Part shown: positions 1 through 42,564 of the stretch, piece after piece | How the letters are laid out: each line of letters starts with the position of its first letter | Numbering within the stretch: the stretch's first letter is position 1 | IMG/VR virus record: IMGVR_UViG_3300031624_000299 | Coordinates: 1 to 42,564 of that record | DNA: 42,564 nucleotides | From: a virus | Reading direction: 5' to 3' (one strand) | Program-made: the position numbers and the translations under genes | The notes under the pieces: model-generated | What the model saw: only the letters and a program-made list of their open reading frames with translations | The model's database searches: none | What the model was told of the DNA's origin: nothing

Positions 1-321
1 CAAGACCTGCTGATCTTCCGAGGCGAGAGTGACTGCATCATGCCTGGCGTCCTTCTGGACTCCCTGGGCGGCGAGCTTCTGCGGAGTGGGTCCACCCGAG
101 GAAGCATCGGGCCGCAGGGGGAACAGACGTATGATGTCTGGCACCGCCGATTCATCCCAGATAGCCCGGAGGCATTCCAGCTCCTTGTTCAACTGGGTCA
201 GCGTAAATCGGCATTGAGGGCACCCTTCCAGATGGCGCTCCAGATAGAGCTTGTCCGGAACGTCGTCCTCGAGCAGATATCTCTCCCACTGTTCGCTTGT
301 GGGGCATTGCCATTTCTGCAT
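1..321 (-). CDS. Putative zinc-finger anti-sigma-like protein, partial (continues past left edge)
   Basis: I translated this frame directly; it opens at an ATG at 319-321 and stays open to the window edge, giving at least 107 residues with no stop. Residues 34-41 read HLEGCPQC, the H-x3-C-x2-C signature of zf-HC2 anti-sigma zinc fingers, and an earlier Cys at residue 6 may join the site. Family knowledge: such domains sit at the N-terminus of anti-sigma factors and bind a partner sigma factor, often with a membrane segment or effector further on, which would lie outside this window. The gene starts 98 bp after a helical, possibly sigma-like gene on the same strand, which fits a sigma/anti-sigma pair. 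An AGGA motif lies 11 nt before the ATG. The C-terminal fate is unknown. Confidence 0.6.
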   Translation of the reverse strand, partial: MQKWQCPTSEQWERYLLEDDVPDKLYLERHLEGCPQCRFTLTQLNKELECLRAIWDESAVPDIIRLFPLRPDASSGGPTPQKLAAQGVQKDARHDAVTLASEDQQVL

Positions 322-1663: not shown

Positions 1664-3880
1664 TCATTCCGCCTCACGTCCATTCTCGGGTGCACCTTGA
1701 GGCTGATCGGCGGGAGCTGGGCAGCCGGGTTGCTTACCCTCCCATCTTTCACATACGGCCTCAAAATCAGGTTGCTTCTCCTCTTGGGTCCAGCTTCGAT
1801 AGAACTTCGGGTTCTTGCTTTTTGGAACAGGGCTGGCTTCTCGCATTTCCACCAACGCTGGGGCCTGAACACACTCTCCCAATACCAGGGCGCTTCGAGG
1901 GGCGAGAGCTGGAAGTTGATCGAGAAGCTGGCCGTAGATACCGGGCACGATTTCCCGGAAATAGCGCAAATCTTCAGGATTCTGCAGACGATGAACAATG
2001 AAGCTATTGCATTGCGAGAGAACCGTTTTTGATAATTCGCTTGGACGTTGGGAAGCTACAACCAATCCCAATCCATACTTTCTGCCTTCTCGGGCGATGC
2101 GCTCAAAGACGAGCTTTGAGATGGAATCCTCCTCCGTCCTTCTTCCCTCGCGGATATAGTTCTGTGCCTCCTCAAGGACGAGAACAACTGGGTACTCCCC
2201 GCGGCCAACACCACTAACCGGATCGCTCAATCGCTGCAAGAATTCATGGATTAAACGACCAATAAGCGCAGTCACATTTTCGAGGACTTCAGAGGCGAGG
2301 AGGCTCAAATCTATGATGACAACATTGGATCGAGTAGAACCGCCTCGCTGCCTGTCGTAGAAAGGCAGTTGACCATCCGGACATGCATCAGTGCCGGTTA
2401 GTCCTGCTTCCCTCAAGCATCCTGCTCCCAGAATGTCCCGCATGAAGGTGGCGAGAGAGTGCATAACCGATGGCCACTCAGAACAAGTGGGTCCGAACAT
2501 GAATTCGAACCGGGAGTCTTCCAGTAACCGGTAAACACGCATTAGCATCGTGGAGCAATTATCCCGAGCCCGTGAAGAGCTTGCTTCGTCACGAGTCATG
2601 GCATGCTCAAGGTGCTTATATCGCAACTCATGCTTACTGAAGTATTTTGGGCAATCAGCAGAGCAGGATATTGAGCGAAAAGAAGACTGAGGAGTAGTTA
2701 CCAGGGTAGCCAATAACGAATTGAGGATGGTGTCTACGGCCTGTCTGACATCCATCACCAATGGATCGTAGTCCTTATCGTTCTTCCGCCCGGCAGTTTG
2801 CTTTACATCTTGAAATACCTTCTTGATGGAATCAGCGGTCAGGTCTGGAAAGTTGTTGATTAGATTCGCCAACGCCTCTTTGCTTTCCTCTGATTCCAGT
2901 GACCTGACGACTCCCTCGCAGATAACGCCCACTGACTGTCTATCTTGCCACTGCCCATTAGCAGCGGCCGACATTAGCCTGTGACATTCCAACAGCAAGT
3001 GTTCTCGTAAGGATACCCAGCTCGGGCCCTGGCTATCCTCTCGGGCAGAAGATAACGCGTTGAGCAAAACAGGTCTTTGAACACCGGGAGATGCCCTAAA
3101 CAAACGGACGAAATCTTCAGAATCCATGAACCAGTAAGGGATTGCGAGCTTCGCTCTTTCTGCTGGGTCAGTCGGTATATAGAGTACCTTGAAGGCAGCC
3201 TGAGCGTCTACCCACGGACCGTTGTCTTTTTGCTTTTGGAAGGCCGAACGATATTCTCCGTTCGTGTCAAGAATGATAAACCGCGTTTGCCTGACATATG
3301 CGTGTTGGATAATCGACTGAATGATGGTGGCAATGGTGCAAGACTTGCCGGAGCCGGTGCTTCCGATGATAGCGGCGTGTTTTCCGAAGAATGCGTCTGG
3401 ATCGATTTTGATGTTGTAGTCCTGGAAGACCGCGGATCGGCCAATTGGAATGGAGAACCCTGGTTCATCTGATGACACTCCATCCTGCTCGGAAGACTTG
3501 CCGAATATTGCATCGAGGTCCTTTTTTGTTGTGACAAGAACTGGCGAATCAAGAACCGGGAACAAACTGATACCCTGCCGGAATCTACCCTCGTCAATAG
3601 TGCCGATCATCGTTGCTTTCATCAACCTTCGCGAGGATGGCAATGTCACCACGGTCTTGTCGGCCTTCAACTCGCTTTCCTCTGTCAATAAAACACGTGT
3701 GACCATCGCGACGATGCGGCGGGCTCCGACAGGGATTATGATATACGAGTTAATTCGCCCGATCTCGAGCGTCCCTTCATAGGTGGATCGAGTCAGGGCC
3801 TTTAGATCACGGTTGAGTTCAACCGTCACCTGAGCTGTGTCAACCGCAACGACCCGGCCTATTTCATGGTCACTCGCCAT
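1664..3880 (-). CDS. herA: HerA-type hexameric ATPase of a SIR2-HerA defence pair
   Basis: 738 aa from the ATG at 3880 (MASDHEIG). A start 21 bp further upstream is open but overlaps SIR2 more. Residues about 5-70 form a beta-rich HAS-barrel-like N-terminus. Walker A is GSTGSGKS at 173-180, Walker B is VVLVLEEAQ at about 565-573, and a conserved ASQRP follows at 609-613, all typical of the HerA/FtsK-like family. The gap between Walker A and B is long and includes a Cys-containing insert near 400-415. HerA proteins form hexameric rings that pump or wrap DNA. In defence loci they pair with nuclease or SIR2 effectors. It overlaps the SIR2 stop by 11 bp, implying coupled translation and 1:1 assembly. 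Confidence 0.9.
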   Translation of the reverse strand: MASDHEIGRVVAVDTAQVTVELNRDLKALTRSTYEGTLEIGRINSYIIIPVGARRIVAMVTRVLLTEESELKADKTVVTLPSSRRLMKATMIGTIDEGRFRQGISLFPVLDSPVLVTTKKDLDAIFGKSSEQDGVSSDEPGFSIPIGRSAVFQDYNIKIDPDAFFGKHAAIIGSTGSGKSCTIATIIQSIIQHAYVRQTRFIILDTNGEYRSAFQKQKDNGPWVDAQAAFKVLYIPTDPAERAKLAIPYWFMDSEDFVRLFRASPGVQRPVLLNALSSAREDSQGPSWVSLREHLLLECHRLMSAAANGQWQDRQSVGVICEGVVRSLESEESKEALANLINNFPDLTADSIKKVFQDVKQTAGRKNDKDYDPLVMDVRQAVDTILNSLLATLVTTPQSSFRSISCSADCPKYFSKHELRYKHLEHAMTRDEASSSRARDNCSTMLMRVYRLLEDSRFEFMFGPTCSEWPSVMHSLATFMRDILGAGCLREAGLTGTDACPDGQLPFYDRQRGGSTRSNVVIIDLSLLASEVLENVTALIGRLIHEFLQRLSDPVSGVGRGEYPVVLVLEEAQNYIREGRRTEEDSISKLVFERIAREGRKYGLGLVVASQRPSELSKTVLSQCNSFIVHRLQNPEDLRYFREIVPGIYGQLLDQLPALAPRSALVLGECVQAPALVEMREASPVPKSKNPKFYRSWTQEEKQPDFEAVCERWEGKQPGCPAPADQPQGAPENGREAE

Positions 3881-5285
3881 TGCTCTCTTCCTCCGCATCA
3901 TCTGTCTTTCGTTGAGAAAGCAGGGAAAGGGATTTGAAGGTTTTCATTACTTTGGCGTCGATTTCCTCCTCTCTGAGGTCTGGCAACAGCTTCATGACGA
4001 AATTCTCGAATGTTCCCAAGCCCCGGCCCTTCACAATCCAAACTCGTTCATCTTCGAGTCTTTCTAATTCCGACACGAAATCGCTGTTGGGATCGGGGTC
4101 TACAACAACGAGAGTAAAGCTCGGGATGGCAAGCGCCTGTCGGATCAATGCGTTGACGTGATCATCGCCAAAGCCATACCCGATTACAATAAGTGCTGAC
4201 TGCGGCTGTGCAATCGCGTTTCCCAGTCTACGAAATAGCTCAGAATATGGCATGTCCAGCGCCTGCCCGTACTTCATCGGCGATGGATAGATCAGGACAT
4301 CGTCTGATTGGCAGTCTTGGTTATAGAATGTCGCATAAAGGCCAAAAGGATTCTCCCAATTCGGTTCGCAGCGATGCCATGTGATGGAACCATGAAGTTT
4401 GTACAGATGGAGTGCCCGATCAAGTCGGTGAACCCGCCCTTCTGTAGTCTGCGCCGGAAAATAGAAGTCTATGTCGTAAGACTCCGGTCTGAAAACACGA
4501 CGAAGCGTGCCGACAAACCCATCGACAAGAACAGCTCCTTCGGCATCTCCGGCTTGTTCAATGAGCGTGTCATAGTTGAGTGTAAAAAGGTTCACCCGTC
4601 GCAGGTTGAGTGGTCGGGTGAGGACCTTCTTGATGAATTTCCTATGATGCCGAAGAGGCTCAGTCAAGCCAGACTTGGGCAGGTTGAGGAGGATTGTTAG
4701 AGAGCTGGTTATCTCCTTGATCAGACGGGCCAAATCGCTCTTGACGATTGATAGCTCGGTGCCACCTGTCAATTGCAGCGTTTCAGTCGCATCAAGCATT
4801 CCGGCATGCCATGTATGTAACTGACTGAGACAGGCTTCAAGGTTCAAATCAATGCCGGGAACGTCCTTTTCCTCGGTCGACTGGAAGAGCATAGAACGGG
4901 TGTTAAACGAGAAGTCGCCGTGTGAAAGAACTGAGGTGATCTTGTAAAAAAGTATAATCCAGCCAGGAACTGTCGTGTCCTTCTGTTCCTCGCTTGCCTT
5001 GTCGAGAAGCGCTTTCTCAAGGGGCTTCGGTATATTGGCAAGAGATACACCACCGACAGGTAGGGACGCACCGGCCCCGAGCAGGAAGGAGACATTGTCG
5101 GTTTTGATTATTGTGCCGAACCGGACGCGCATTTCCTTGAGGAACTCATTGAGCGCTTTCTGAGCCTTTTCTTCGTTTTCAGTGTTCTCAGGATCAGCGC
5201 TCAAGATGCCATGCACGTGCCGTTCTATGACATCTTCCTTGCCAATGCATATCTGATAATCAGACAAGTGGAAGGTCTCGCTCAT
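3870..5285 (-). CDS. SIR2-family effector of a SIR2-HerA defence pair
   Basis: 471 aa from ATG 5285, preceded by AGGAGG eight bases upstream and overlapping the previous stop as ATGA. SIR2_2-type motifs are visible: FLLGAGAS at 67-74 (NAD phosphate loop), TLNYD at 235-239 with the catalytic-type Asn237, and KLHGSITW at 296-303 with His298. A Rossmann-like C-terminal strand set follows (ALIVIGYGFGDDHVN). Defence SIR2 proteins usually hydrolyse NAD+ when phage infection is sensed, causing abortive infection, though nuclease activity has also been reported for HerA-linked forms. The following HerA gene overlaps by 11 bp. The first 50 residues are helical and not part of the sirtuin fold, possibly a HerA-docking segment (inference). 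Confidence 0.88.
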   Translation of the reverse strand: MSETFHLSDYQICIGKEDVIERHVHGILSADPENTENEEKAQKALNEFLKEMRVRFGTIIKTDNVSFLLGAGASLPVGGVSLANIPKPLEKALLDKASEEQKDTTVPGWIILFYKITSVLSHGDFSFNTRSMLFQSTEEKDVPGIDLNLEACLSQLHTWHAGMLDATETLQLTGGTELSIVKSDLARLIKEITSSLTILLNLPKSGLTEPLRHHRKFIKKVLTRPLNLRRVNLFTLNYDTLIEQAGDAEGAVLVDGFVGTLRRVFRPESYDIDFYFPAQTTEGRVHRLDRALHLYKLHGSITWHRCEPNWENPFGLYATFYNQDCQSDDVLIYPSPMKYGQALDMPYSELFRRLGNAIAQPQSALIVIGYGFGDDHVNALIRQALAIPSFTLVVVDPDPNSDFVSELERLEDERVWIVKGRGLGTFENFVMKLLPDLREEEIDAKVMKTFKSLSLLSQRKTDDAEEESNGE

Positions 5286-5563
5286 CTCCCTTCCCTCCTT
5301 CCTCTCGTTATAAGCTCCCACAGCAGGTCCAGATCGTCGTTGAGAAGTTGGAGGGATACGCTTGCCCCTCCGGCAAAGGGCTCAACAAAGACCTTGGGGC
5401 AAAGTAAATTCAAAGGAAGAACTTCCGCGACGTAGCCCGCCAAGCGCCTCTTCGCTCCAAGATAACGAAGCGGTGAGAGGATTGATGCCTCCCGGCAGGA
5501 AAACGGCTTCTTCGCTAAAGCACTTTCTATGGACCTTGTGCCTTTTCCTTCACCACTCTGCAT
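5282..5563 (-). pseudogene. Truncated Dam-like (D12 class) adenine methylase, N-terminal fragment
   Basis: 93 codons from ATG 5563 to a TGA that overlaps the SIR2 start. Residues about 28-78 match the start of D12-class adenine methylases: SPLRYLGAKRRLAGYVAEV is the usual SPLRYPGGKxRL motif, and FVEPFAGGASVSLQLLNDD is the AdoMet-binding FxGG motif. After LLNDD the frame runs into 15 unrelated residues and stops. The target-recognition region and the catalytic DPPY motif are absent, so it cannot methylate. Full members are near 270-330 aa, so roughly 200 or more residues are gone, most simply by an internal deletion. The reading frame and the start/stop overlap with SIR2 survive, so it may now serve as a translational leader for SIR2. 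Confidence 0.75.
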
Positions 5564-5567
5564 CTTA

Positions 5568-5711
5568 CTAAAGCTCCCCCTTGAATGCCTTGTCCAATAT
5601 AGATGGGAGCATGGCGCCGAGTTCGACTTCGGCTTCATGTTGCGTGGTGAGCATCTGGCGGATTTCCGCCCGAAATCGGTGGAACCCATCCTTGCTTGTT
5701 GATAGAGACAC
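5568..5711 (-). pseudogene. Orphan C-terminus of HsdS specificity subunit (47 codons)
   Basis: This frame is not an obvious long ORF but its end, LGAMLPSILDKAFKGEL, is the characteristic C-terminus of HsdS. It opens at a GTG (5709-5711) with AAGGAG seven bases upstream, so it may still be translated as a 47-aa peptide. The body is a helix (FHRFRAEIRQMLTTQHEAEVEL) like the conserved HsdS spacer. It lies 22 bp after the HsdM-S fusion and 4 bp before the Dam fragment. The simplest reading is that the second half of an S gene was deleted, leaving its tail. An alternative is a functional split piece that completes the HsdS helical bundle. Confidence 0.65.
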
Positions 5712-5733
5712 TCACCATCTCCTTTTGCCGCGT

Positions 5734-7857
5734 CTACTCGAACACATAGTTGGCGATGGCTGCGGTGGCATGATCTGCGAACCTGGCTGCATCGCGAATG
5801 GCATCCACCGCAGACCGTGTGACCCGAAGTAAGGCCACTGCCTCCTTCTGAATGCTCAATGAAGGCACGGGAACAGACTCCGCCAGAAAGAGATCCTCCT
5901 TGAGCCTCTTGCGATTAGTTGTACCCCGGCTCGATCTTGTACATGCCTCCAATAACTGCTCAGAGCTTAGAAGAAGCGCGAGGAATTCTGGCTCAACAAC
6001 AGACGCATCAATGTCAAACAAGGGGAAGTCCTGTGTCACCAAACCGCCGTCAAGTTCAGGAGGCACGATCCCGAAGGCTCCGTTTCGAGCGTCAATACGG
6101 CTCATGATCAGCTGGCCAGCGGCGGCGATAAACTGAGGACGGGTCCGAATATCACGCCCGGGCAATACCTGCCGAAGGACAATGCCTTTCCCGTAAAGCT
6201 TCACCGTGATCTGCTTGTAGTCCAAATCAGCGACCACAGTGACTTCGTTTTTGGCTCTACGAAGAAAGGAGCCAAGGCGGGTTCGAGTCGACCGACCGTT
6301 TAGCAAAGGCTCCAGTTCCTTGGCCTTGTCAACAAGTTCGCTCAGTGAAGCATTAGCTCTATCCAACGGATGTTTTATCGCGGCCACGATTGCCGTTGGA
6401 CCAGCGAACTCGTTCTCGCTACGGTGTGGATTCCTGAAGTCAAGGGAGTACTGGCGTGCGGCAACATCATTCTTTTGCACATACCACGCTGCCTCTGTTT
6501 CACCTCGGTCCTTCCACCACTCTAAAGCTGGCACCAATTCCTCAAGCCTGAGGGCGTAAGTTCTGGTATAGCACGGATTACGCATAAGGCGTCGCTCGGG
6601 AGGAACCTCGTGCTGGTAGAACCATATACCTGTGGTAGGCTGAGAGCGGTCGAAGAACAGCAGATTGGTCTGGATGTCAGAATATGGCTCAAAGACCCCT
6701 TTGGGCAACCGCACAATGGTGTGCAGGTTGAAATCGTCGACGAGTTCCTGGCGAATACGCTGGGTAATACCATCATCCCCCAAGACGCTTTCTGGCACAA
6801 CCACGGCCGCGCGACCAGACCTCGGCCCGCGCTTTAGCTTGCGCATGATGAGTTGGAGGAAGAGCAGCGCGGTCTCGGTGGTCTGCCTGTCCTCCGGAAA
6901 GTTGTTCAGGATTCCACGCTCCTCCTCACCACCGAACGGTGGATTGGTGAGAATCACATCAACTCGGTCACGGTCTCCAATCTCATTTAGCGGGAAGCGC
7001 AGGCTGTTCTCGGGGTCGATCTGTGGGGCTTCAAGACCGTGCAGGAGCAGGTTCATTTGGCAGAGCAGGTACGGCAGGGGCTTTGCTTCACCGCCGAAGA
7101 TGGACCGTTCCTGAAGAACCTTTCGGTCCTCAACGGTCTTAACCTGCTTGCTCAGGTGGTTGAACGCCTCAACGAGGAAGCCGCCTGTCCCGCAGGCCGG
7201 GTCAAGAATGGTCTCTCCCAGGCGCGGATTCACGGCCTCGACCATGAACCGGACGACGGGGCGGGGCGTATAGAACTCGCCGGAGTCTCCAGCCGCGTCG
7301 CGCATCTCGCGTAGCATGGATTCGTAGAGGTGGCCTAGGGTGAACAGTTCGTCCTGGGCATCGAAGTGAATGGAGTTCACCGAGTTTATCACGTCTCGCA
7401 ACAGGTAGCCGGACTGCATGCGGTTCGTCAGACGGCTGAATACGCTGGCGATCACGCGCTTCCGGCTCGTGGGTCCGTTGTGCAGGCCGCTCAGGTAAGC
7501 GAAGAGCCCCGGTCCCTTGGAGCCATCCGGGCGGGTGGCCTCCTCTTGATTGATGAAAGCGATCAATTCGGGGCCTGTGATTCCATTCTCCTGCGCCGCC
7601 CAGTCGCGCCATCGGTACGCCGGCTCGATAGTCGGGCGGTACTTCACGCGGCGCATCTTGGCGCGCGATTCCTCAATCTGCTCCAAGTCGTCGAGGAACT
7701 TGAGGAACATGATCCACGTCACCAGCGGAAGGCGGTCCAAGTCGCCCGAAAGACCCTTGTCCTTCCGCATGACCTTGCGGCAGGACTTAATGACGTTGCC
7801 GAGCCGTTCGGCTGTCGTCTTGGGTTGTTCCTTCTTCTCTGTGCGTTTCTTGGCCAT
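5734..7857 (-). CDS. hsdM: Type I modification methylase fused to a half specificity subunit (HsdM-S)
   Basis: 707 aa. Residues 15-165 are the helical HsdM N-terminus. AdoMet motif I is DPACGTGG at 219-226 and the adenine-methylase motif IV is NPPFGG at 305-310, so it should make N6-methyladenine. HsdM normally ends near residue 500. Here another 200 residues follow, with an HsdS-like target-recognition plus conserved helix region (about 515-707, ending in a SIQKEAVALLRVTRSAVDAI helix). Only one recognition domain is present, whereas HsdS has two. Such half-S fusions can dimerise to read a palindromic bipartite site. It is 9 bp after hsdR. Family assignment is firm; the quaternary arrangement is inference. 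Confidence 0.92.
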   Translation of the reverse strand: MAKKRTEKKEQPKTTAERLGNVIKSCRKVMRKDKGLSGDLDRLPLVTWIMFLKFLDDLEQIEESRAKMRRVKYRPTIEPAYRWRDWAAQENGITGPELIAFINQEEATRPDGSKGPGLFAYLSGLHNGPTSRKRVIASVFSRLTNRMQSGYLLRDVINSVNSIHFDAQDELFTLGHLYESMLREMRDAAGDSGEFYTPRPVVRFMVEAVNPRLGETILDPACGTGGFLVEAFNHLSKQVKTVEDRKVLQERSIFGGEAKPLPYLLCQMNLLLHGLEAPQIDPENSLRFPLNEIGDRDRVDVILTNPPFGGEEERGILNNFPEDRQTTETALLFLQLIMRKLKRGPRSGRAAVVVPESVLGDDGITQRIRQELVDDFNLHTIVRLPKGVFEPYSDIQTNLLFFDRSQPTTGIWFYQHEVPPERRLMRNPCYTRTYALRLEELVPALEWWKDRGETEAAWYVQKNDVAARQYSLDFRNPHRSENEFAGPTAIVAAIKHPLDRANASLSELVDKAKELEPLLNGRSTRTRLGSFLRRAKNEVTVVADLDYKQITVKLYGKGIVLRQVLPGRDIRTRPQFIAAAGQLIMSRIDARNGAFGIVPPELDGGLVTQDFPLFDIDASVVEPEFLALLLSSEQLLEACTRSSRGTTNRKRLKEDLFLAESVPVPSLSIQKEAVALLRVTRSAVDAIRDAARFADHATAAIANYVFE

Positions 7858-7866
7858 CTGCTTTCC

Positions 7867-10257
7867 TTACGCCGCGTATAAAAGGGTCTGCAACTTCCGT
7901 ATGGCAGCCACCAGTTTCTCTTCGCCGCTGAAATACCTAGCAATCTGCATCGCGTTGCCGTGTTCACTGAGCGGCGGCACTTCAAGCACGTCGGGGATGA
8001 TAAACTGCGCCGTCCCATGCTCGACGTACTTGTCCAACAGCTCGTCCAGAATCTGCCTGGCCTCGGGGCCGTACTGGTCGAAGAAGTCCTTCTTCTCCGA
8101 CCGGAGCCGTTGCGCCCGCTCGCGCCGAGTCCGTAGCGGTGCATTGAACGCAATGTGACAGAGCAGGTCAAGCGGGTCCGCATCGGGTTGATTCGCCACG
8201 GTGGCCAGTTCGTCAAAATCTATACCCTGATCGGCGAGTTTATCGATGATGTCCATTCGATGATCAGGGTTCGCCCACTTATTGCGAAGCTCGGCAGCAT
8301 TCGTATAGAGAGTCCGGATCTTCTCCGCTGTGTAATCAGTAAAACGAACGACCCTGAGTTGATTGCCGTCCGCGTCGAGTTCATAGACCAAGTGGGCCGC
8401 GATCTCGACCTGACCGCCGTCAAAGTAGAACTTGCGCCGCTCGGTGATCGTATCATCGTCGGGTGGCAATGGATCGATGATCACCTCGTCGCCAGGCTCA
8501 GGCTCTTCCTCGGGCGCAATGACGGTTTCATCATCGGTCGGCTGGCCATCTTCATTGATATGCTGTTCCGTCTCGATAGATGGGTCACCGTCGAAGTCCG
8601 GATCAGCGAACATGCGAGTGGCCGATCCGGTATAGTCCAAGATGCTGAAGAAAAACTTGCCGTAATCGTCACGGACTCGCGTGCCACGTCCGATGATTTG
8701 CTTGAAGTCGGTCATCGAGTTGATAACCCGCATCAGAACGACATTCTGCACTGTCGGAGCATCTATGCCCGTAGTGAGCATCTGCGACGTGGTCAGGATG
8801 ACGGGGGTGCATCGTTCGACGTCCTGGAAGTTGCTCAGGTGGCCTCGGCCAATCCCACCTTCATCCGACGTGACACGGCATACGTAGTCCGGGTGTTGAC
8901 GGGCGAGGTCGGCGTTGAGGTTGTTCAGTGTACGGCGCATCTCGTCGGCGTGTTCCTGATCGACACAGAAGACAATAGTTTTGTCGAAGCGTCCTGTCTT
9001 ATTCAGAAATTCGGTCAAGTGCTTCGCGACAGCTTCAGTTCTAGCCTTCAAAGAAACAATTCGTTCGAAATCATTCGTGCGGTATTCTTCGTCGGGGATT
9101 TCCCTCCCGTAACGGTCGAGTTCCCCTTGGCTAGGCCGCCAACCCGCCGCATCCCAGGTGGTGATTACACGGTGAACGCGATACGGGGCGAGGAAGCCAT
9201 CGTCGATGCCCTGACGCAGGCTGTATTGGTAAATGGGGTCGCCGAAGTAGCGATACGTGTCGGCGTTGTCCTGGCGGCGCGGCGTGGCCGTCATGCCGAT
9301 CTGGAACGCATCTCGGAAGTACTCCAGGATTTCACGCCAGTTGCTGTCATCCTTGGCGCTGCCCCTGTGGCACTCATCTACAATGATCAGATCAAAGAAG
9401 TCAGACGCATACTCGCGATACAGGCCGGGTCTTCGCTCGTCGCGAGCGATGGCCTGATAGATGGCGAAGTACATCTCACGGCCTTTATTGGCTACGCCTC
9501 CCTCGATCTTCCATCGTGCGTCACCGAAAGGAGTGAAGATTTTGGCCATAGGATCGTCAACGAGCACGTTGCGATCAGCCAGATAGAGAATCCTCGGACG
9601 TCGGTAATCACCGGTGCGATTCCAGCGCGATGACCATAGTTTCCAGCAGATCTGAAAGGCCACGATGGTCTTGCCGGTACCCGTGGCCATCGTAAGTAAA
9701 ATGCGTCTTCTGCCCAGGAGCACTGCTTGAACGGCGCGGTTGATGGCGATTTCTTGATAGTAGCGCGGCGATTTCCCGCTCAGATGGTAGGCAGGAGCAA
9801 GTAAGCGCTCGGCCAACTGTGGACCAAGAGCCTCTGAATTGATCAGGCGTGTCCACAGCTCATCTGGTGTCGGGAAGCTTTCTATCTCACGTTCAAGGCC
9901 CGTCGTATAGTCGAATTCAACAATTCCCTGTCCGTTTGTAGCATAAGCAAACTTCAGCCCGAGGATTTCTGCATAATCCTTCGCTTGCTGAAGACCTTGG
10001 CCGGGAGTGACATATGACGGCTTGGCCTCCACCACAGCTATGGGCATATCAGGACGGTAACGCAGAATGTAATCGGCGCGCTTGCCAGGCCTTCTCCGCC
10101 CCTGACGGCCAGACACAATAATACGACCATCGGTGAAGGTGACTTGCTCGCAAATACGATGCGGCTCGTCATCCCACCTAACAGCTTGGAGCTTAGGGAC
10201 TACATAGCGGCGACAGGTATCGGCTTCGTTCAAGGCCATAGCTACACTTGTCTCCAA
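7867..10257 (-). CDS. hsdR: Type I restriction endonuclease subunit R (HsdR)
   Basis: 796 aa from a TTG at 10257 with AAGGA eight bases upstream; an in-frame ATG at 10239, just past the regulator's stop, is the alternative start. The PD-(D/E)XK nuclease is at residues 60-80 (AD at 61-62, VVEAK at 75-79). The SF2 translocase follows: ATGTGKT at 191-197, DECH at 294-297, MTATPRR at 322-328, then a RecA2 domain containing IGRGTRVRDDYGKFF. The C-terminus has an acidic linker and a helical domain for binding the methylase. It lacks nothing expected of the EcoEI-like HsdR family. It is coupled to the XRE regulator upstream and to hsdM downstream. It cleaves unmodified DNA at a distance after ATP-driven translocation. 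Confidence 0.95.
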   Translation of the reverse strand: METSVAMALNEADTCRRYVVPKLQAVRWDDEPHRICEQVTFTDGRIIVSGRQGRRRPGKRADYILRYRPDMPIAVVEAKPSYVTPGQGLQQAKDYAEILGLKFAYATNGQGIVEFDYTTGLEREIESFPTPDELWTRLINSEALGPQLAERLLAPAYHLSGKSPRYYQEIAINRAVQAVLLGRRRILLTMATGTGKTIVAFQICWKLWSSRWNRTGDYRRPRILYLADRNVLVDDPMAKIFTPFGDARWKIEGGVANKGREMYFAIYQAIARDERRPGLYREYASDFFDLIIVDECHRGSAKDDSNWREILEYFRDAFQIGMTATPRRQDNADTYRYFGDPIYQYSLRQGIDDGFLAPYRVHRVITTWDAAGWRPSQGELDRYGREIPDEEYRTNDFERIVSLKARTEAVAKHLTEFLNKTGRFDKTIVFCVDQEHADEMRRTLNNLNADLARQHPDYVCRVTSDEGGIGRGHLSNFQDVERCTPVILTTSQMLTTGIDAPTVQNVVLMRVINSMTDFKQIIGRGTRVRDDYGKFFFSILDYTGSATRMFADPDFDGDPSIETEQHINEDGQPTDDETVIAPEEEPEPGDEVIIDPLPPDDDTITERRKFYFDGGQVEIAAHLVYELDADGNQLRVVRFTDYTAEKIRTLYTNAAELRNKWANPDHRMDIIDKLADQGIDFDELATVANQPDADPLDLLCHIAFNAPLRTRRERAQRLRSEKKDFFDQYGPEARQILDELLDKYVEHGTAQFIIPDVLEVPPLSEHGNAMQIARYFSGEEKLVAAIRKLQTLLYAA

Positions 10258-37442: not shown

Positions 37443-38306
37443 TCAGCCGAGAATCTTGATCTTGGCCACGACGTCCGGGCGGGTTACGCCCTGTCCCATT
37501 TCCGACCAGACCAGCCAGCCTGTTTTGAACCGGGTCTTCTGTTCGATGGCTTCTGTCTTGAGGTTTTCCCTCACCGGCATCTTGCCCACCTCCTCGTCGG
37601 GAATGAGCAACACTTCGTCGAGGGACTGGGCCGCGGTGAGCAGAATGCCTCCGGTGCCGTAGTTCTTGATCACGCCCTTTGCGCGCAGCTCGGCCTTGGT
37701 CTGAGGATCGAGGTTCCAGCCACGCAGATCGTTGAATCGCCGACCGCGCATGACGATGTATTTCACGGACAGCTCGAGGTCCTCGATGATCGAAACGGCC
37801 TCGTTCAGGGCTTCCTCGGTCAGCGTGTTGCCGGTGACCTCGACGGTGTTTCCGGCCGGGACGGAAGCGGAGAGCACGGTGATGGTCCGCTTGTCGATCT
37901 CCTTGCGGATTTCGTCGGCCGCCGAGGTTTGAATATCCATCAGCGTGCCGATATTGCCGTTCTTGAGCACCGACACGTCGACCATCGGCGCGGAATGTAT
38001 GCGGTGGGTGGGAAACTCCACCTCATCCTTTCCCAGTTCCTGTTCCTGGGCTTCGCCCTCGTTGCTGATCCAGTACGCCTTGACCTTCGGCTTCTTCTGG
38101 TAGAGCGGACGCTCGCCCTTGGGAAGCGTATGGCGGGTCAGCAGCAGCGAGGAGATCTCCTTGCGCTTGATCTCCTGCTCGATGGGCGCGGCGATGGCCG
38201 CGGCCAGGGCGCGCATCCCATCCGGGGATTCCAGCGCCTCGGACATCAGGCGCGCCATCGTTTCCATGTATTCCTGGCTGTGCACGTTCACTTGGGTCGT
38301 CTCCAT
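37443..38306 (-). CDS. Major capsid protein (HK97 fold)
   Basis: 287 aa with GAGGAGG before the ATG. The E-loop-type stretch (LPKGERPLYQKKPKVKAYWIS), the spine helix (ADEIRKEIDKRTITVLSAS) and the P-domain (KYIVMRGRRFNDLRGW) support a capsid subunit. Position after decoration and protease/scaffold genes and before connector genes is decisive. The short N-terminal helix of about 40 residues could be the delta domain removed by the prohead protease (inference). Confidence 0.85.
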   Translation of the reverse strand: METTQVNVHSQEYMETMARLMSEALESPDGMRALAAAIAAPIEQEIKRKEISSLLLTRHTLPKGERPLYQKKPKVKAYWISNEGEAQEQELGKDEVEFPTHRIHSAPMVDVSVLKNGNIGTLMDIQTSAADEIRKEIDKRTITVLSASVPAGNTVEVTGNTLTEEALNEAVSIIEDLELSVKYIVMRGRRFNDLRGWNLDPQTKAELRAKGVIKNYGTGGILLTAAQSLDEVLLIPDEEVGKMPVRENLKTEAIEQKTRFKTGWLVWSEMGQGVTRPDVVAKIKILG

Positions 38307-38325: not shown

Positions 38326-38688
38326 TCAGATGAGCAGCCGGAACTTGATCGTTCCGCCGGAGGCGGAGATGGCCTGCGCGATCACTTCCTCGCCAGCCTG
38401 GACGCCCGCCGTGAGTTTGCCGTTCGCCGAGACCTTCAGGTCGTCGCCGGGATTGACGGTTCCCTCGAAAACGTCGGTCTCGTAGACGCCGCCCATGCAG
38501 TAAATGCCAGGCATCTCGCCGTTGTTGTAGTCCTTGATCAGAATGCCGAACGACTTGGCCGTCGGATCGGTGTTCACAGCGAACAGGTCATCGCCGGCGA
38601 TCTTCGCCACCTGGCCGAGTTGACCGTCGCCCTGCATGTGGCCGTCGCCGTATGCGAGGCCGCGATGATTGGGATTGATGAAAGGCAT
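38326..38688 (-). CDS. Capsid decoration protein
   Basis: 120 aa. Beta-rich with FGILIKDYNNGEMPGIYCMGGVYETDVFEGTVNPGDDLKVSANGKLTAG, the pattern of head decoration/stabilisation proteins of the DUF2190-like type. It lies 19 bp before the major capsid gene and 15 bp after the protease-scaffold frame, the usual place. Strong AGGAGG-like site before the ATG. Confidence 0.8.
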   Translation of the reverse strand: MPFINPNHRGLAYGDGHMQGDGQLGQVAKIAGDDLFAVNTDPTAKSFGILIKDYNNGEMPGIYCMGGVYETDVFEGTVNPGDDLKVSANGKLTAGVQAGEEVIAQAISASGGTIKFRLLI

Positions 38689-38703: not shown

Positions 38704-41700
38704 TCAGTTGGTTGCGACGGGCTCGCCTGCGGCAGACGCCACCCGGTGCCGATAGGCGGCCATGAAGCCGCTCTTGAGCTTGTCTTCGAGGCTGGTCTTC
38801 TGGTCATCCACATCCTTCGGGCGGACACCGGCGTCGCTTCGCATGGGGGCGTCCTTCTTCTGGGACTCGGCCTTTGTTTTCGCCTTAGCGTGGTCCTCGC
38901 CGTCTTCCTCTTTCTGCTTTTCAGCCTTCTCGGCGTTTGACCGGATCATGCGATCCATGGCGGTCTCCGTGGCCGCGAAGGCCTCGTCCGAGAGTCCGGC
39001 GAGCCGTTCGATTTCCTTCTCCCGCTCCTCGTCCTCGCCGAAGGAGATGTTCTGCTCCTCCATCCTGCGGATGAGCTTCTGGGCTCGTTTGCGGTTGGCC
39101 GCTGCTTTGCGCTCGGCCTCCATCTCTTCGAGCTTTTTCTGCAAGGCGAGCACCTGCTGCTTGAGTTCCTGGTTCTCCTTCTCAAGCTCCTTGACGCGCG
39201 CCTTGTCGTCGACAGCACCGCCGCCGCCTTCGTCTTTCTTCTGGGCAGCGGCTTCGGCCGCCTCGTTTTTCGCTTTTTGCTTTTCGTCCATCGGTGGACC
39301 TCCTTCTTCAACGGTTTGGGTTTGTTCTACTTGCTCGGAGGCGACCTGGGTGATGCGGGCGTTATCATCGGCACCCTTGCGGTCGAGGAGGCCAAGGCCG
39401 GTGAACGTCACGCCGTGCAGAATCTCGTAAACCGGCTTCCCTTGGAAATCACTGCCTTTGTATTTGCGCAAGTGAATGCAGTAGTCATCCTTCGACTGCA
39501 CCCGCTTGCCGCAGATCGAGCATTCCCCTTCCTCGTAGTCGCACTCCATCGAGACCTGGTTGACAATCCCCTTCTTGATCAGCTTGTAGGCCAGTTGTGC
39601 ATGAAGACTGTCTGACACGAAGAGTTCACCCACACATTCGACCCGTCCGCTGTTTTCGTCTTCGATGAAGTTCGCTGAGACCACTCCGCCGACGATGTCG
39701 GTGAATTCCTGGGAGTGTTTGAGATCGATCTTCTTGTTGACAGCGGTTGTATAGCGGGCTGCCAGTTCCTCCGCCGTGAAGTGATCACCATTCTTGTTGG
39801 TGCCGACGCGGCAAAGGATGAACGTGAATTGTGGATCGCCCTCGTTCCTGACGAAGTCCATCGCCTCGGCGCTGAGAGCCATGGGTATAGTAGCGTCAAT
39901 CTCAACAGGGATGGACGTGTGACAGGACGCATGTGAATAGGCGGCCGCCGAACGAGGGGCGCTCCGGGCCTTGGATGAAACGAAAAGCAGTTCCCTGGCG
40001 TGCTTGCCCTCGCGCCCGATGTCTTTGGCGATATTGTAGTCGACCTCCATGCCGCGAACTCGGACCAGGCCGTAGTGCTCGGCAAATATCTCTTTGATCT
40101 CATCCTCCCGCGGATAAGCCCGGTCGCGGTACGACAACAGCACGGTGGCGTACTTGCCGCGGGCATCGGCTGCCAGAGTCTCGAGCAGGGACCGTATCGA
40201 TTCCTTGGTATAGCGTGTTCGCGAAGGGAAATTCCTGCGCGGATTCGATTGGATGGTTTTGTCCGCCCACTTGGTCATCAGGCCTTCGATGAAATGCAGG
40301 GAATCCTCGTAGTCGTTGCTCCCGAACTCGGTTACGTAGGGCGGATCGAGATACAGGACATCCGATCCATACCTCCGGACAACCTCGGCCGCATCCAGAT
40401 TGAAGGCCTTACACTCCTTCCCGTTGTCGAACACGAGGTTGTTGAGTTGACCGATAGACCGCCTGAAGGATTCGATGAATTTCGACAGTGGCGGATTGGA
40501 CAGCTGGGACTGTTCCAGGCTGGCCGCTGTCTCCAGGTCTGCTTTACGGTTCATCTTGGAGCGGGAAAACTGACCGAAGGCGCTCTTTGACTTCACGGTA
40601 ATTCCGAGCGCAGCCAACGCCAGGTCCTTCTTGTGTCCCGGCAGCTTCTGGATGTTCGCCCACACCTGGTCCAGCCAGCGGAGCACCGGCTTGGTGTAGT
40701 AATAGCCGTAAAAATGATCTACGATGAACGTCCCGGCGTCCGGGTTCGGAGCGAGCAGCCTCTCGACGTCCTCGTCGCTCAAGGTCTCGCTGGAGTTCTC
40801 GATAACAGCCCGTGCCAGGTGATAGGGAAAGCGCAGCAGGTCGTTGGCGATGACCTTCAGCCCCTTACGCTTGAAGTGGTAGGCCACGTTCGCGCCGCCG
40901 GAAAAGGCGTCAAGAAGGCTATCCGCTTCATTGGGCACATGACGCTCGATCCAGCCGAGCATCAGGTACTTGCTGCCCATGAAACCGGTGACTCGGACAG
41001 GGTCCGCCTTGCCCCCCTGACAGGTGAGCAGATCGACGGAATCCCCCAATGGAGCGTCGGCCAACGCACGAAGGTTGGCATCCACCCGCAGGGCCGCATC
41101 AGCCGCCTTTTTAGCCTCGTTCTTCTCGATCCATTCCTTGGCCTTTTCCACGGTCCAGCCGTCGGAGTTCTTATCTGTCTTGCGAACGAACCGGTAGGAC
41201 TGGAGCACCATGGAACGCGGATTGCCGCCGTCGGGCACGAACTCCTTTTTCAACCGCCCGATGATGATAGCCACGCCCTCGACGCCCTCAAGCGTCTTAC
41301 GTCGGAAGCTGTCCGGCTCGAACCGCTCCGGGTCCAGGACCCGGTAGCGGATTTCACTCTCCGTTTCCTCCCAGATCGCCTGCGCGGTCATGGTTTCGGT
41401 GGATGCGACGGCGTCCGCCTTGGTGGACCGTCCCGCCGAACGGGAGCAGATGAACAACCGTTCCTTGGCGTGGGAGGCGTCGCCGTGACGCGATGTGATG
41501 GCGTAGTGATGGTCGTGGGAACGCATGCTCGATTCACGGTCAAGGGCGGTGATGATCCTGCGCATCTCCGTCTCGGTCGGGAAAGCGTGATCCCGGTAGG
41601 AAATCAGCCATTGCGGGATGTGCTTCGCGTTGCCGAGGAAGGTCTCGAAGAACTCCGCCGCGTTGGCCCGGGTCACGGTCTTGTGATCCGTCTCGTAATG

Positions 41701-42564
41701 CTTGGTCTTGGAGTCCTCGACGAGGGTGAGTCCCTCCCAATAGGTCATCAGTCCTTCCACGAAGTGATAGGCCTTTTCGTAATTCGTGGTCGAGAACTCC
41801 GTGGCGTAGGGCGGATCGAAATAGGCGAGATCGACCTTGGCCTCGGGCAGGAAGTCATTGATGTCTTTGCGGAAGGCCTTGCACTCCTTGCCGTTGTCGA
41901 ATACGAGGGCGTTGATGCGGGCCACGTTCTTGCGGAAACGGGTTTTGAACTCCTCGGGGCTGTCCTCCCGTTTTCCGTAACGGGTGGAGGAAGAGAAGTG
42001 ACCGAAGCCGCCTTTGCCAGACATACAGGTCTTGCCCAGAGTGAATAGGGCAATGTCTTTCTTGAAGCCCGAGAGCCGGTCAACATTGGCCCGGATCGTA
42101 TCGATCAGTCCGTGGACGCCCTTGGCGAAAAAGATGCCCTTGAAGTTGTCGCGGACGAAGCTCCCGGCCTTGGGATTGTCGACCAGCAGCGCCTCCACGT
42201 CCTCGTCGCTGAGCCGGATGCTGTCGTTTTCGATAATGGCCCGGGCGGCGTGATAACAGTAGTGAAGACGGTCGTTGGCCAGGACCCGCAGGCCCTTGGT
42301 CTTGAACATGTAGGCCACAACCGCCGACCCTGAAAAGGCGTCGGCCACGTATGACACTCCCTCCGGGGTGTGCTTCCAAATCCAATCGACCAGCTTCTGC
42401 TTCGAGCCGATGTAGTTGGTGATGTATTTCGGCCGTTTCTCCGGAGGCTCTTCCTCCGAGACATCGCCCGCCAGGGCTTCGAGCGCCTCAAAGTCCAGGT
42501 CAAGCGCGGCGTCTGTTTCCAGCAGGAAAGCCAGCCGGTCACGGTCGGTTGCGAATAGCTCCAT
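38704..42564 (-). CDS. Fusion polyprotein: two adenine methylases, prohead protease and scaffold
   Basis: 1286 aa; the ATG lies on the last three bases of the window, so it may be longer. Residues 45-375 are a D12-type adenine methylase (GSKQKL at 53-58, DAFSGSA at 75-81, FDPPY at 249-253). Residues 395-480 are a small domain seen in phage head genes (EIRYRVLDPERFE). Residues 525-865 are a second methylase (DAFSGGA at 552-558, LDPPY at 739-743). Residues 895-1060 are an XkdF/T4 gp21-like prohead protease, with candidate His950 and Ser1005 (NQVSMEC) and a Cys1015/1018/1029-His1031 zinc motif. Residues 1090-1286 are a charged coiled-coil scaffold. I see no stop or Shine-Dalgarno site at the domain borders. 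Confidence 0.85.
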   Translation of the reverse strand: MELFATDRDRLAFLLETDAALDLDFEALEALAGDVSEEEPPEKRPKYITNYIGSKQKLVDWIWKHTPEGVSYVADAFSGSAVVAYMFKTKGLRVLANDRLHYCYHAARAIIENDSIRLSDEDVEALLVDNPKAGSFVRDNFKGIFFAKGVHGLIDTIRANVDRLSGFKKDIALFTLGKTCMSGKGGFGHFSSSTRYGKREDSPEEFKTRFRKNVARINALVFDNGKECKAFRKDINDFLPEAKVDLAYFDPPYATEFSTTNYEKAYHFVEGLMTYWEGLTLVEDSKTKHYETDHKTVTRANAAEFFETFLGNAKHIPQWLISYRDHAFPTETEMRRIITALDRESSMRSHDHHYAITSRHGDASHAKERLFICSRSAGRSTKADAVASTETMTAQAIWEETESEIRYRVLDPERFEPDSFRRKTLEGVEGVAIIIGRLKKEFVPDGGNPRSMVLQSYRFVRKTDKNSDGWTVEKAKEWIEKNEAKKAADAALRVDANLRALADAPLGDSVDLLTCQGGKADPVRVTGFMGSKYLMLGWIERHVPNEADSLLDAFSGGANVAYHFKRKGLKVIANDLLRFPYHLARAVIENSSETLSDEDVERLLAPNPDAGTFIVDHFYGYYYTKPVLRWLDQVWANIQKLPGHKKDLALAALGITVKSKSAFGQFSRSKMNRKADLETAASLEQSQLSNPPLSKFIESFRRSIGQLNNLVFDNGKECKAFNLDAAEVVRRYGSDVLYLDPPYVTEFGSNDYEDSLHFIEGLMTKWADKTIQSNPRRNFPSRTRYTKESIRSLLETLAADARGKYATVLLSYRDRAYPREDEIKEIFAEHYGLVRVRGMEVDYNIAKDIGREGKHARELLFVSSKARSAPRSAAAYSHASCHTSIPVEIDATIPMALSAEAMDFVRNEGDPQFTFILCRVGTNKNGDHFTAEELAARYTTAVNKKIDLKHSQEFTDIVGGVVSANFIEDENSGRVECVGELFVSDSLHAQLAYKLIKKGIVNQVSMECDYEEGECSICGKRVQSKDDYCIHLRKYKGSDFQGKPVYEILHGVTFTGLGLLDRKGADDNARITQVASEQVEQTQTVEEGGPPMDEKQKAKNEAAEAAAQKKDEGGGGAVDDKARVKELEKENQELKQQVLALQKKLEEMEAERKAAANRKRAQKLIRRMEEQNISFGEDEEREKEIERLAGLSDEAFAATETAMDRMIRSNAEKAEKQKEEDGEDHAKAKTKAESQKKDAPMRSDAGVRPKDVDDQKTSLEDKLKSGFMAAYRHRVASAAGEPVATN

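Follow-up and report, generated by a model that had tools for sequence, protein, structure and literature searches.

Lambda gpC/gpNu3 and herpesvirus UL26/UL26.5 are protease-scaffold genes with a nested scaffold, and herpesvirus scaffold proteins carry release and maturation sites. To our knowledge, few phages are known to carry enzymes in the head, and the entry and release of such cargo are often unclear. The phage P1 DarB protein is a packaged methylase (PMC5512222), the P1 prohead protease processes DarA (PMC12810830), and some of the polyvalent phage proteins described by Iyer et al. end in assemblin-like peptidases at the C terminus (PMC5512222). Here, we analyzed the IMG/VR virus record IMGVR_UViG_3300031624_000299 (the whole record of 42,564 bases, classed as linear and referred to below as the window), in which a single open reading frame (ORF) joins two DNA methylases to a prohead protease and a scaffold. 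It is highly likely that this ORF encodes a polyprotein with a nested scaffold gene. Our best explanation, which we consider probable as a whole, is that it is the prohead-protease/scaffold gene of a contractile-tailed (pro)phage lineage with Dam-type methylase domains fused at its 5′ end, and that it involves two products, packaging, cleavage, and ejection.

The ORF runs from ATG to stop through 1286 codons with no internal stop. From the N to the C terminus, Pfam and PHROG matches, together with alignments and structural models, define a first methylase (M1), a small linker domain (LNK), a second methylase (M2), a prohead protease, and a coiled-coil scaffold; an earlier sequence-only reading had likewise placed two methylases ahead of the protease and scaffold. 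The features are as follows (all on the minus strand; aa, amino acids).

38704..42564, minus strand: whole polyprotein ORF, M1-linker-M2-protease-scaffold (1286 aa)
41410..42432, minus strand: predicted methylase M1, D12 class (aa 45-385; DPPY at aa 250-253; Pfam PF02086 and type II methylase models)
41377..41391, minus strand: candidate cleavage site MTAQA, M1/linker (aa 392-396; motif recurrence)
41020..41409, minus strand: linker domain LNK (aa 386-515; no known family; moderate-confidence fold in the model)
39970..41013, minus strand: predicted methylase M2, D12 class (aa 518-865; DPPY at aa 740-743)
39862..39876, minus strand: candidate cleavage site LSAEA, M2/protease (aa 897-901; motif recurrence, segment of low predicted local distance difference test score [pLDDT])
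39310..39897, minus strand: predicted prohead protease with zinc-finger-like insert (aa 890-1085; His950, Ser1005; alignment and T4 gp21 fold match)
39298..39305, minus strand: internal Shine-Dalgarno sequence AAGGAGGT, 6 bases before the scaffold ATG
38707..39291, minus strand: predicted scaffold, also a putative nested gene (aa 1092-1286; own ATG at 39291-39289; helical model with separate C-terminal helix)
38830..38844, minus strand: candidate cleavage site MRSDA, before the C-terminal scaffold helix (aa 1241-1245; 44/55 representatives; low-pLDDT segment)

The polyprotein ATG lies at the extreme end of the record. Because relatives begin at the same MELFATD, 4 codons after an in-frame stop and behind a weak CCGGAG, the 5′ end is complete. 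A circular closure of the record, in which the frame at 1-321 on the minus strand would be in phase with the ATG at 42564, was rejected because the left end holds a zf-HC2 anti-sigma-like ORF beside defense genes and the relatives start at MELFATD. The zf-HC2 ORF (1-321, minus strand) runs off the left end of the record; therefore, the left flank is probably host DNA.

Whether the join could be a sequencing or assembly error, with separate genes having lost their stops or frames, was judged from the related sequences. A scan of viral contigs with the polyprotein sequence returned 80 loci, a protease profile returned 52 loci in bacterial genomes and 80 viral loci, and methylase profiles returned 80 and 78 loci; 55 representatives at 85% identity were taken from viral contigs and bacterial genomes. 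In total, 261 intact fused ORFs were found (overlapping loci counted), with two methylases and the protease in 139 and one methylase and the protease in 122, and a methylase (one or two) shares the ORF with the protease in 49/55 representatives. Isolates bearing the gene include Desulfosarcina alkanivorans PL12, D. widdelii PP31, Ectothiorhodospira shaposhnikovii DSM 243, and Sulfidibacter corallicola M133, and 8/389 sampled genomes of the Desulfosarcina class contain a match. No copy has an internal stop among ten relative-bearing genomes, including the closed chromosomes of D. alkanivorans and D. widdelii (NZ_AP021874 and NZ_AP021875), in which the fusion is intact. Frame breaks in a few relatives (L068, L081, L183, L323, and L113) could be taken to favor an error, but the broken copies examined mostly keep the rest of the fusion in another frame or past one stop; in L068, L323, L183, and L113, the remainder follows after the frame break or stop. 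Separate genes with real start sites at the borders would also be expected under an error, whereas no start is conserved before M2 or the protease among the representatives. A missed stop or frameshift is thus refuted by the relatives, closed genomes among them, and we assign an artifact a negligible probability. Given the intact relatives, the borders at residues 380-400, 500-525, and 865-895, where the sequence-only reading had advised a check of the raw reads, are real domain borders. The ratios of nonsynonymous to synonymous substitution rates (dN/dS) in M1 and M2 are 0.04-0.15 between the window and seven relatives, about as low as in the protease. Thus, the fusion is real, as the 261 intact ORFs and the stop-free closed genomes show, and, because dN/dS is low in both methylases, it is under selection.

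The searches also returned 16 methylase ORFs that end within their locus without a protease; these derive from about six contigs. One of them (L055, 5749-7668) is of the M1 type, contains LRAEA, and runs into an unrelated C terminus without a protease; it is either another fusion or a recombinant. The D. alkanivorans chromosome (NZ_AP021874.1) carries tandem- and single-methylase versions at two places (L083 and L104).

At the joint between protease and scaffold, the window reads GAAGAAGGAGGTCCACCGATGGACGAA, and a near-perfect Shine-Dalgarno sequence, AAGGAGGT, lies six bases ahead of an in-frame ATG. Pairing with the anti-Shine-Dalgarno sequence at ≤-8.5 kcal/mol occurs at the scaffold joint in 48/55 representatives. 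The same threshold is reached in 4/49 before the protease, 3/32 before M2, and 4/44 in the region where the full-length chain starts; among the remaining in-frame starts (2237), the rate is 1.2%. The motif is read in differing codon registers, as EGG in the window and as KED in L048, and the start codon after it is ATG, GTG, or TTG; conservation thus concerns the RNA signal and not the peptide. The scaffold is therefore predicted to be made also alone, from a conserved internal start, as a nested gene like that of lambda C/Nu3. The strength of this start, together with the lack of a conserved protease start, suggests that production of scaffold would exceed that of the long chain and that, apart from cutting of the chain, the phage has no evident route to a methylase-free protease. 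The polyprotein account in the sequence-only reading was correct as to the conserved fusion and incomplete in that it missed both this internal start and the recurrent alanine-ended motif described below.

Both methylases are predicted to be D12-class N6-adenine DNA methylases. The D12 methylase model (Pfam PF02086) matches several stretches of the polyprotein, with 153.7 bits against a cutoff of 22, and M1 and M2 match type II methylase models. The DPPY motif, at residues 250 and 740 in the window, is present in every M1 (30), M2 (32), and single (13) domain, and the other motifs, FxGxK-like and motif I, are nearly invariant. The top Foldseek match of the methylase model is Escherichia coli Dam, which is quoted here because the VIA rows for this model were mostly generic methylase folds; PDB sequence searches with M1 and with an M1-M2 profile gave no match. 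For the linker domain (41020-41409, minus strand), which is missing in part of the relatives, no convincing family was found. In type IIS systems with tandem adenine methylases (AlwI, PMC4081073; MhoVII, PMC12898733), an asymmetric site is modified by one methylase per strand. The tandem copies in the polyprotein probably divide the strands of an asymmetric site between them or act on two sites.

The protease is predicted to be a prohead protease of the T4 gp21/herpesvirus assemblin type. In AlphaFold2 models built from family alignments, the protease core is mostly above a pLDDT of 90. The best VIA-align match is T4 gp21 (Z 11.5, 125 residues, 2.3 Å), followed by herpesvirus assemblins (Z about 7-10.5), and the top Foldseek matches are likewise assemblins, with weak E values (best, 0.0034). 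The columns of the predicted catalytic residues, His950 and Ser1005, are invariant in 17 aligned sequences; with DPPY present in both methylases, the earlier statement that the catalytic motifs are intact is borne out. An invariant CxxC...CxH zinc-finger-like insert (39454-39525, minus strand; aa about 1014-1034) is also present in the alignment with a methylase-less homolog. The HK97 family prohead protease model (NCBIfam TIGR01543) does not match the window protein and gives a single-methylase relative (L098) 18.9 bits against a cutoff of 59. A PDB search with the protease-scaffold profile returned only zinc-finger and coiled-coil matches, apparently by chance. Beyond a disordered joint, the C-terminal region is modeled as long helices followed by a separate C-terminal helix, consistent with a scaffold.

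The position of the gene agrees with this assignment. Two conserved neighbors lie downstream in the window.

38326..38688, minus strand: cement/decoration-like protein, directly downstream of the polyprotein (weak Pfam and PHROG matches)
37443..38306, minus strand: major capsid protein (phrog_2522, E 5e-88)

In relatives, the locus lies between the portal and the major capsid protein, as for a prohead protease (L083, L127, and neighbors in the L-series); the order at L083 is terminase, portal, MuF-like minor head protein, fusion, cement, and major capsid protein. The fusion in Desulfofustis glycolicus is preceded by a MuF-like minor head gene (L098:210-4796) that encodes 1529 aa and is itself a large fusion of unknown function (phrog_6577), in which SAP-like repeats and a kinase-like stretch were seen by eye. 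S. corallicola contains, besides a fused copy (L132), a methylase-less homolog of 416 aa at a second locus (L127), where the genes follow the same order. Because this homolog occupies the same gene place as the fused copies, the methylases are a detachable N-terminal module, and its presence in the same genome as a fused copy makes it a natural control. In a tree of methylase domains with an unfixed root, M2 forms a clade of its own that also takes in L174, a single-methylase ORF; the remaining single methylases are placed with the M1 domains (100/100 split). On this tree, the tandem arrangement is old, and loss of M2 could account for most of the single forms.

The linkers and the scaffold end contain recurrent alanine-ended motifs that are likely self-cleavage sites, by analogy with the herpesvirus release and maturation sites, although this is the least secure step of the analysis. 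A motif resembling [LM]R[ST]DA|GV is found at the scaffold end in 44/55 representatives, and similar words occur at the methylase-protease joint (LSTEA, LSADA, and MSSEA) and the M1-M2 joint (MQTQA, MRSQA, and MEAEA). When each linker was shuffled individually over 1000 rounds, the strict form, [LM]x[STA][DEQ]A, was expected in 1.4 methylase-protease linkers (maximum, 6) versus 32/49 observed and in 2.3 M1-M2 linkers (maximum, 8) versus 16/32 observed. It occurs five times in the window polyprotein and is rare in the other window virion proteins checked; two of the five copies, LETDA at residue 15 and LAADA within M2, lie away from the linkers and are not counted as candidate sites. In the AlphaFold2 model, the segments that hold the protease-linker and scaffold-tail sites have low confidence and are presumably disordered. 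Overall, cutting of the chain at the proposed sites is somewhat favored. In the N-terminal part of the capsid protein (37443-38306, minus strand), LMSEA|LES at residue 20 also resembles the candidate motif and lies in a stretch conserved among capsid proteins.

A candidate cut site between methylases and protease could also fit a role of the methylase domains in assembly, as DNA-binding or bulky N-terminal propeptides that regulate the protease or the prohead, with catalysis incidental; proteases of this kind are often made as proenzymes, and the methylases are N-terminal to this one. Under such a role, however, neither the invariance of DPPY and near invariance of the other motifs in M1, M2, and single domains nor the low methylase dN/dS would be expected, and the methylase-less homolog at the same gene place argues against it as well. 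We regard it as quite improbable.

The following sequence of events would account for the arrangement. The weak start would yield few full methylase-methylase-protease-scaffold chains and the strong internal start many scaffold copies, the amounts being deduced from the start signals. Long chain and free scaffold would coassemble through their common scaffold tail, enclosing the methylases in the prohead. There, the protease would become active, cut at the LxxEA-type sites to free M1, M2, and itself, and sever the scaffold from its C-terminal helix, and the scaffold would be cleared. The methylases, at ∼38 kDa and with few motif sites in their bodies, would be too big to leave and would be retained in the head, and most likely they would be ejected with the DNA and methylate it in the new host. 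Entry of the full-length chain into the prohead is likely; it and self-cleavage, both suggested by the sequence-only reading, are backed indirectly by the scaffold tail, the lack of a conserved separate protease start, and the recurrent linker motif. Delivery of the methylases with the DNA is more tentative and falls somewhat short of an even chance, and protection of the delivered DNA from restriction would follow from it only by inference. Nearly as cautiously, with slightly more confidence than in delivery itself, we propose that the scaffold tail serves as packaging signal and the protease as releaser, such that head maturation loads free, active methylases that are ejected with the genome to methylate it in the next cell.

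The methylases might instead act only in the producing cell, with the fusion coupling their synthesis to late expression and the prohead so that DNA is methylated shortly before or during packaging and nothing is delivered to the next host. The gene lies in a late operon, and methylation of progeny DNA is the known rule for ordinary phage Dam-type enzymes. However, a separate late gene would suffice for this purpose, nearly all relatives keep the fusion to a prohead-entering protein, and the protease lacks a conserved separate start; we consider action confined to the producing cell unlikely, though clearly less so than the propeptide role. Several points weigh against packaging and delivery. 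The polyprotein is known from genes alone. The cut sites are taken from related sequences, and conservation of the motif could have another cause. Survival of the methylases in the mature head and their ejection are inferred. These methylases have no known methylated site and no known restriction enzyme as a partner. Finally, the methylases are dispensable for assembly, given that a methylase-less homolog functions from the equivalent gene position. Nonetheless, delivery with the genome remains our preferred reading, and because the cargo is joined to two proteins expected inside the prohead and comes with a nested scaffold, no separate protease start, and candidate cut sites, its loading and release are directly testable.

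A region of the window beyond the tail genes (1664-10257, minus strand) holds a HerA-SIR2 pair along with a type I restriction system, whose HsdM is apparently fused to a specificity domain. The sequence-only reading had linked the fused methylases to protection against the host's type I system. This link is unsupported: the type I genes (5.7-10.3 kb) include an HsdM of their own, and the models matched by the D12 methylases are those of type II enzymes, whose sites are short and fixed.

The join of methylase, protease, and scaffold extends beyond this record, since the PHROG profile phrog_27806 (“DNA methyltransferase,” 798 positions) spans it, matching residues 519-1277 with 1340 bits. No specific description of a methylase-prohead protease fusion, or of a nested scaffold of such a kind, was found in the literature, in line with the earlier remark that no standard arrangement of this type is known; the arrangement is nevertheless not unique to this phage, as PHROGs already groups its relatives. 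Among annotated phage records, matches were limited to pieces of methylase or protease at 25-35%, with no relative over the full length, and no plasmid record covered 80% of the query, the best being Dam-type methylases at about 30%. PHROG 27806, which covers M2-protease-scaffold and the methylase-less L127, represents the same protein family, but it is named for the methyltransferase only, with no mention of protease, scaffold, or nested start, and the tandem form is longer. Its public name is hereby corrected: the proteins grouped under it are prohead proteases and scaffolds in addition to methylases, and one of them (L127) has no methylase.

Compared with described systems, the polyprotein shares two methylases in one chain with AlwI and MhoVII but differs in that its methylases are fused to a protease and a scaffold, with no restriction partner seen in the gene neighborhood. 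Like the polyvalent proteins and P1 DarB, it is a large phage protein with a DNA adenine methylase that is expected in the head. It is not a DarB, since Pfam found no SWI2/SNF2 helicase domain in it, and unlike DarB, an accessory protein, its methylases lie within the phage's own protease/scaffold gene beside the capsid gene; if they are delivered as proposed, this route into the next host would be unusual and independent of Dar-like accessory genes. The closest parallels are lambda C/Nu3 and herpesvirus UL26/UL26.5, with which it shares a predicted prohead protease of assemblin-type fold, a C-terminal scaffold that would also be made from an in-frame nested start, and alanine-ended candidate sites near the scaffold C terminus, and from which it is set apart by one or two DNA methylases ahead of the protease and by the zinc-finger-like insert.

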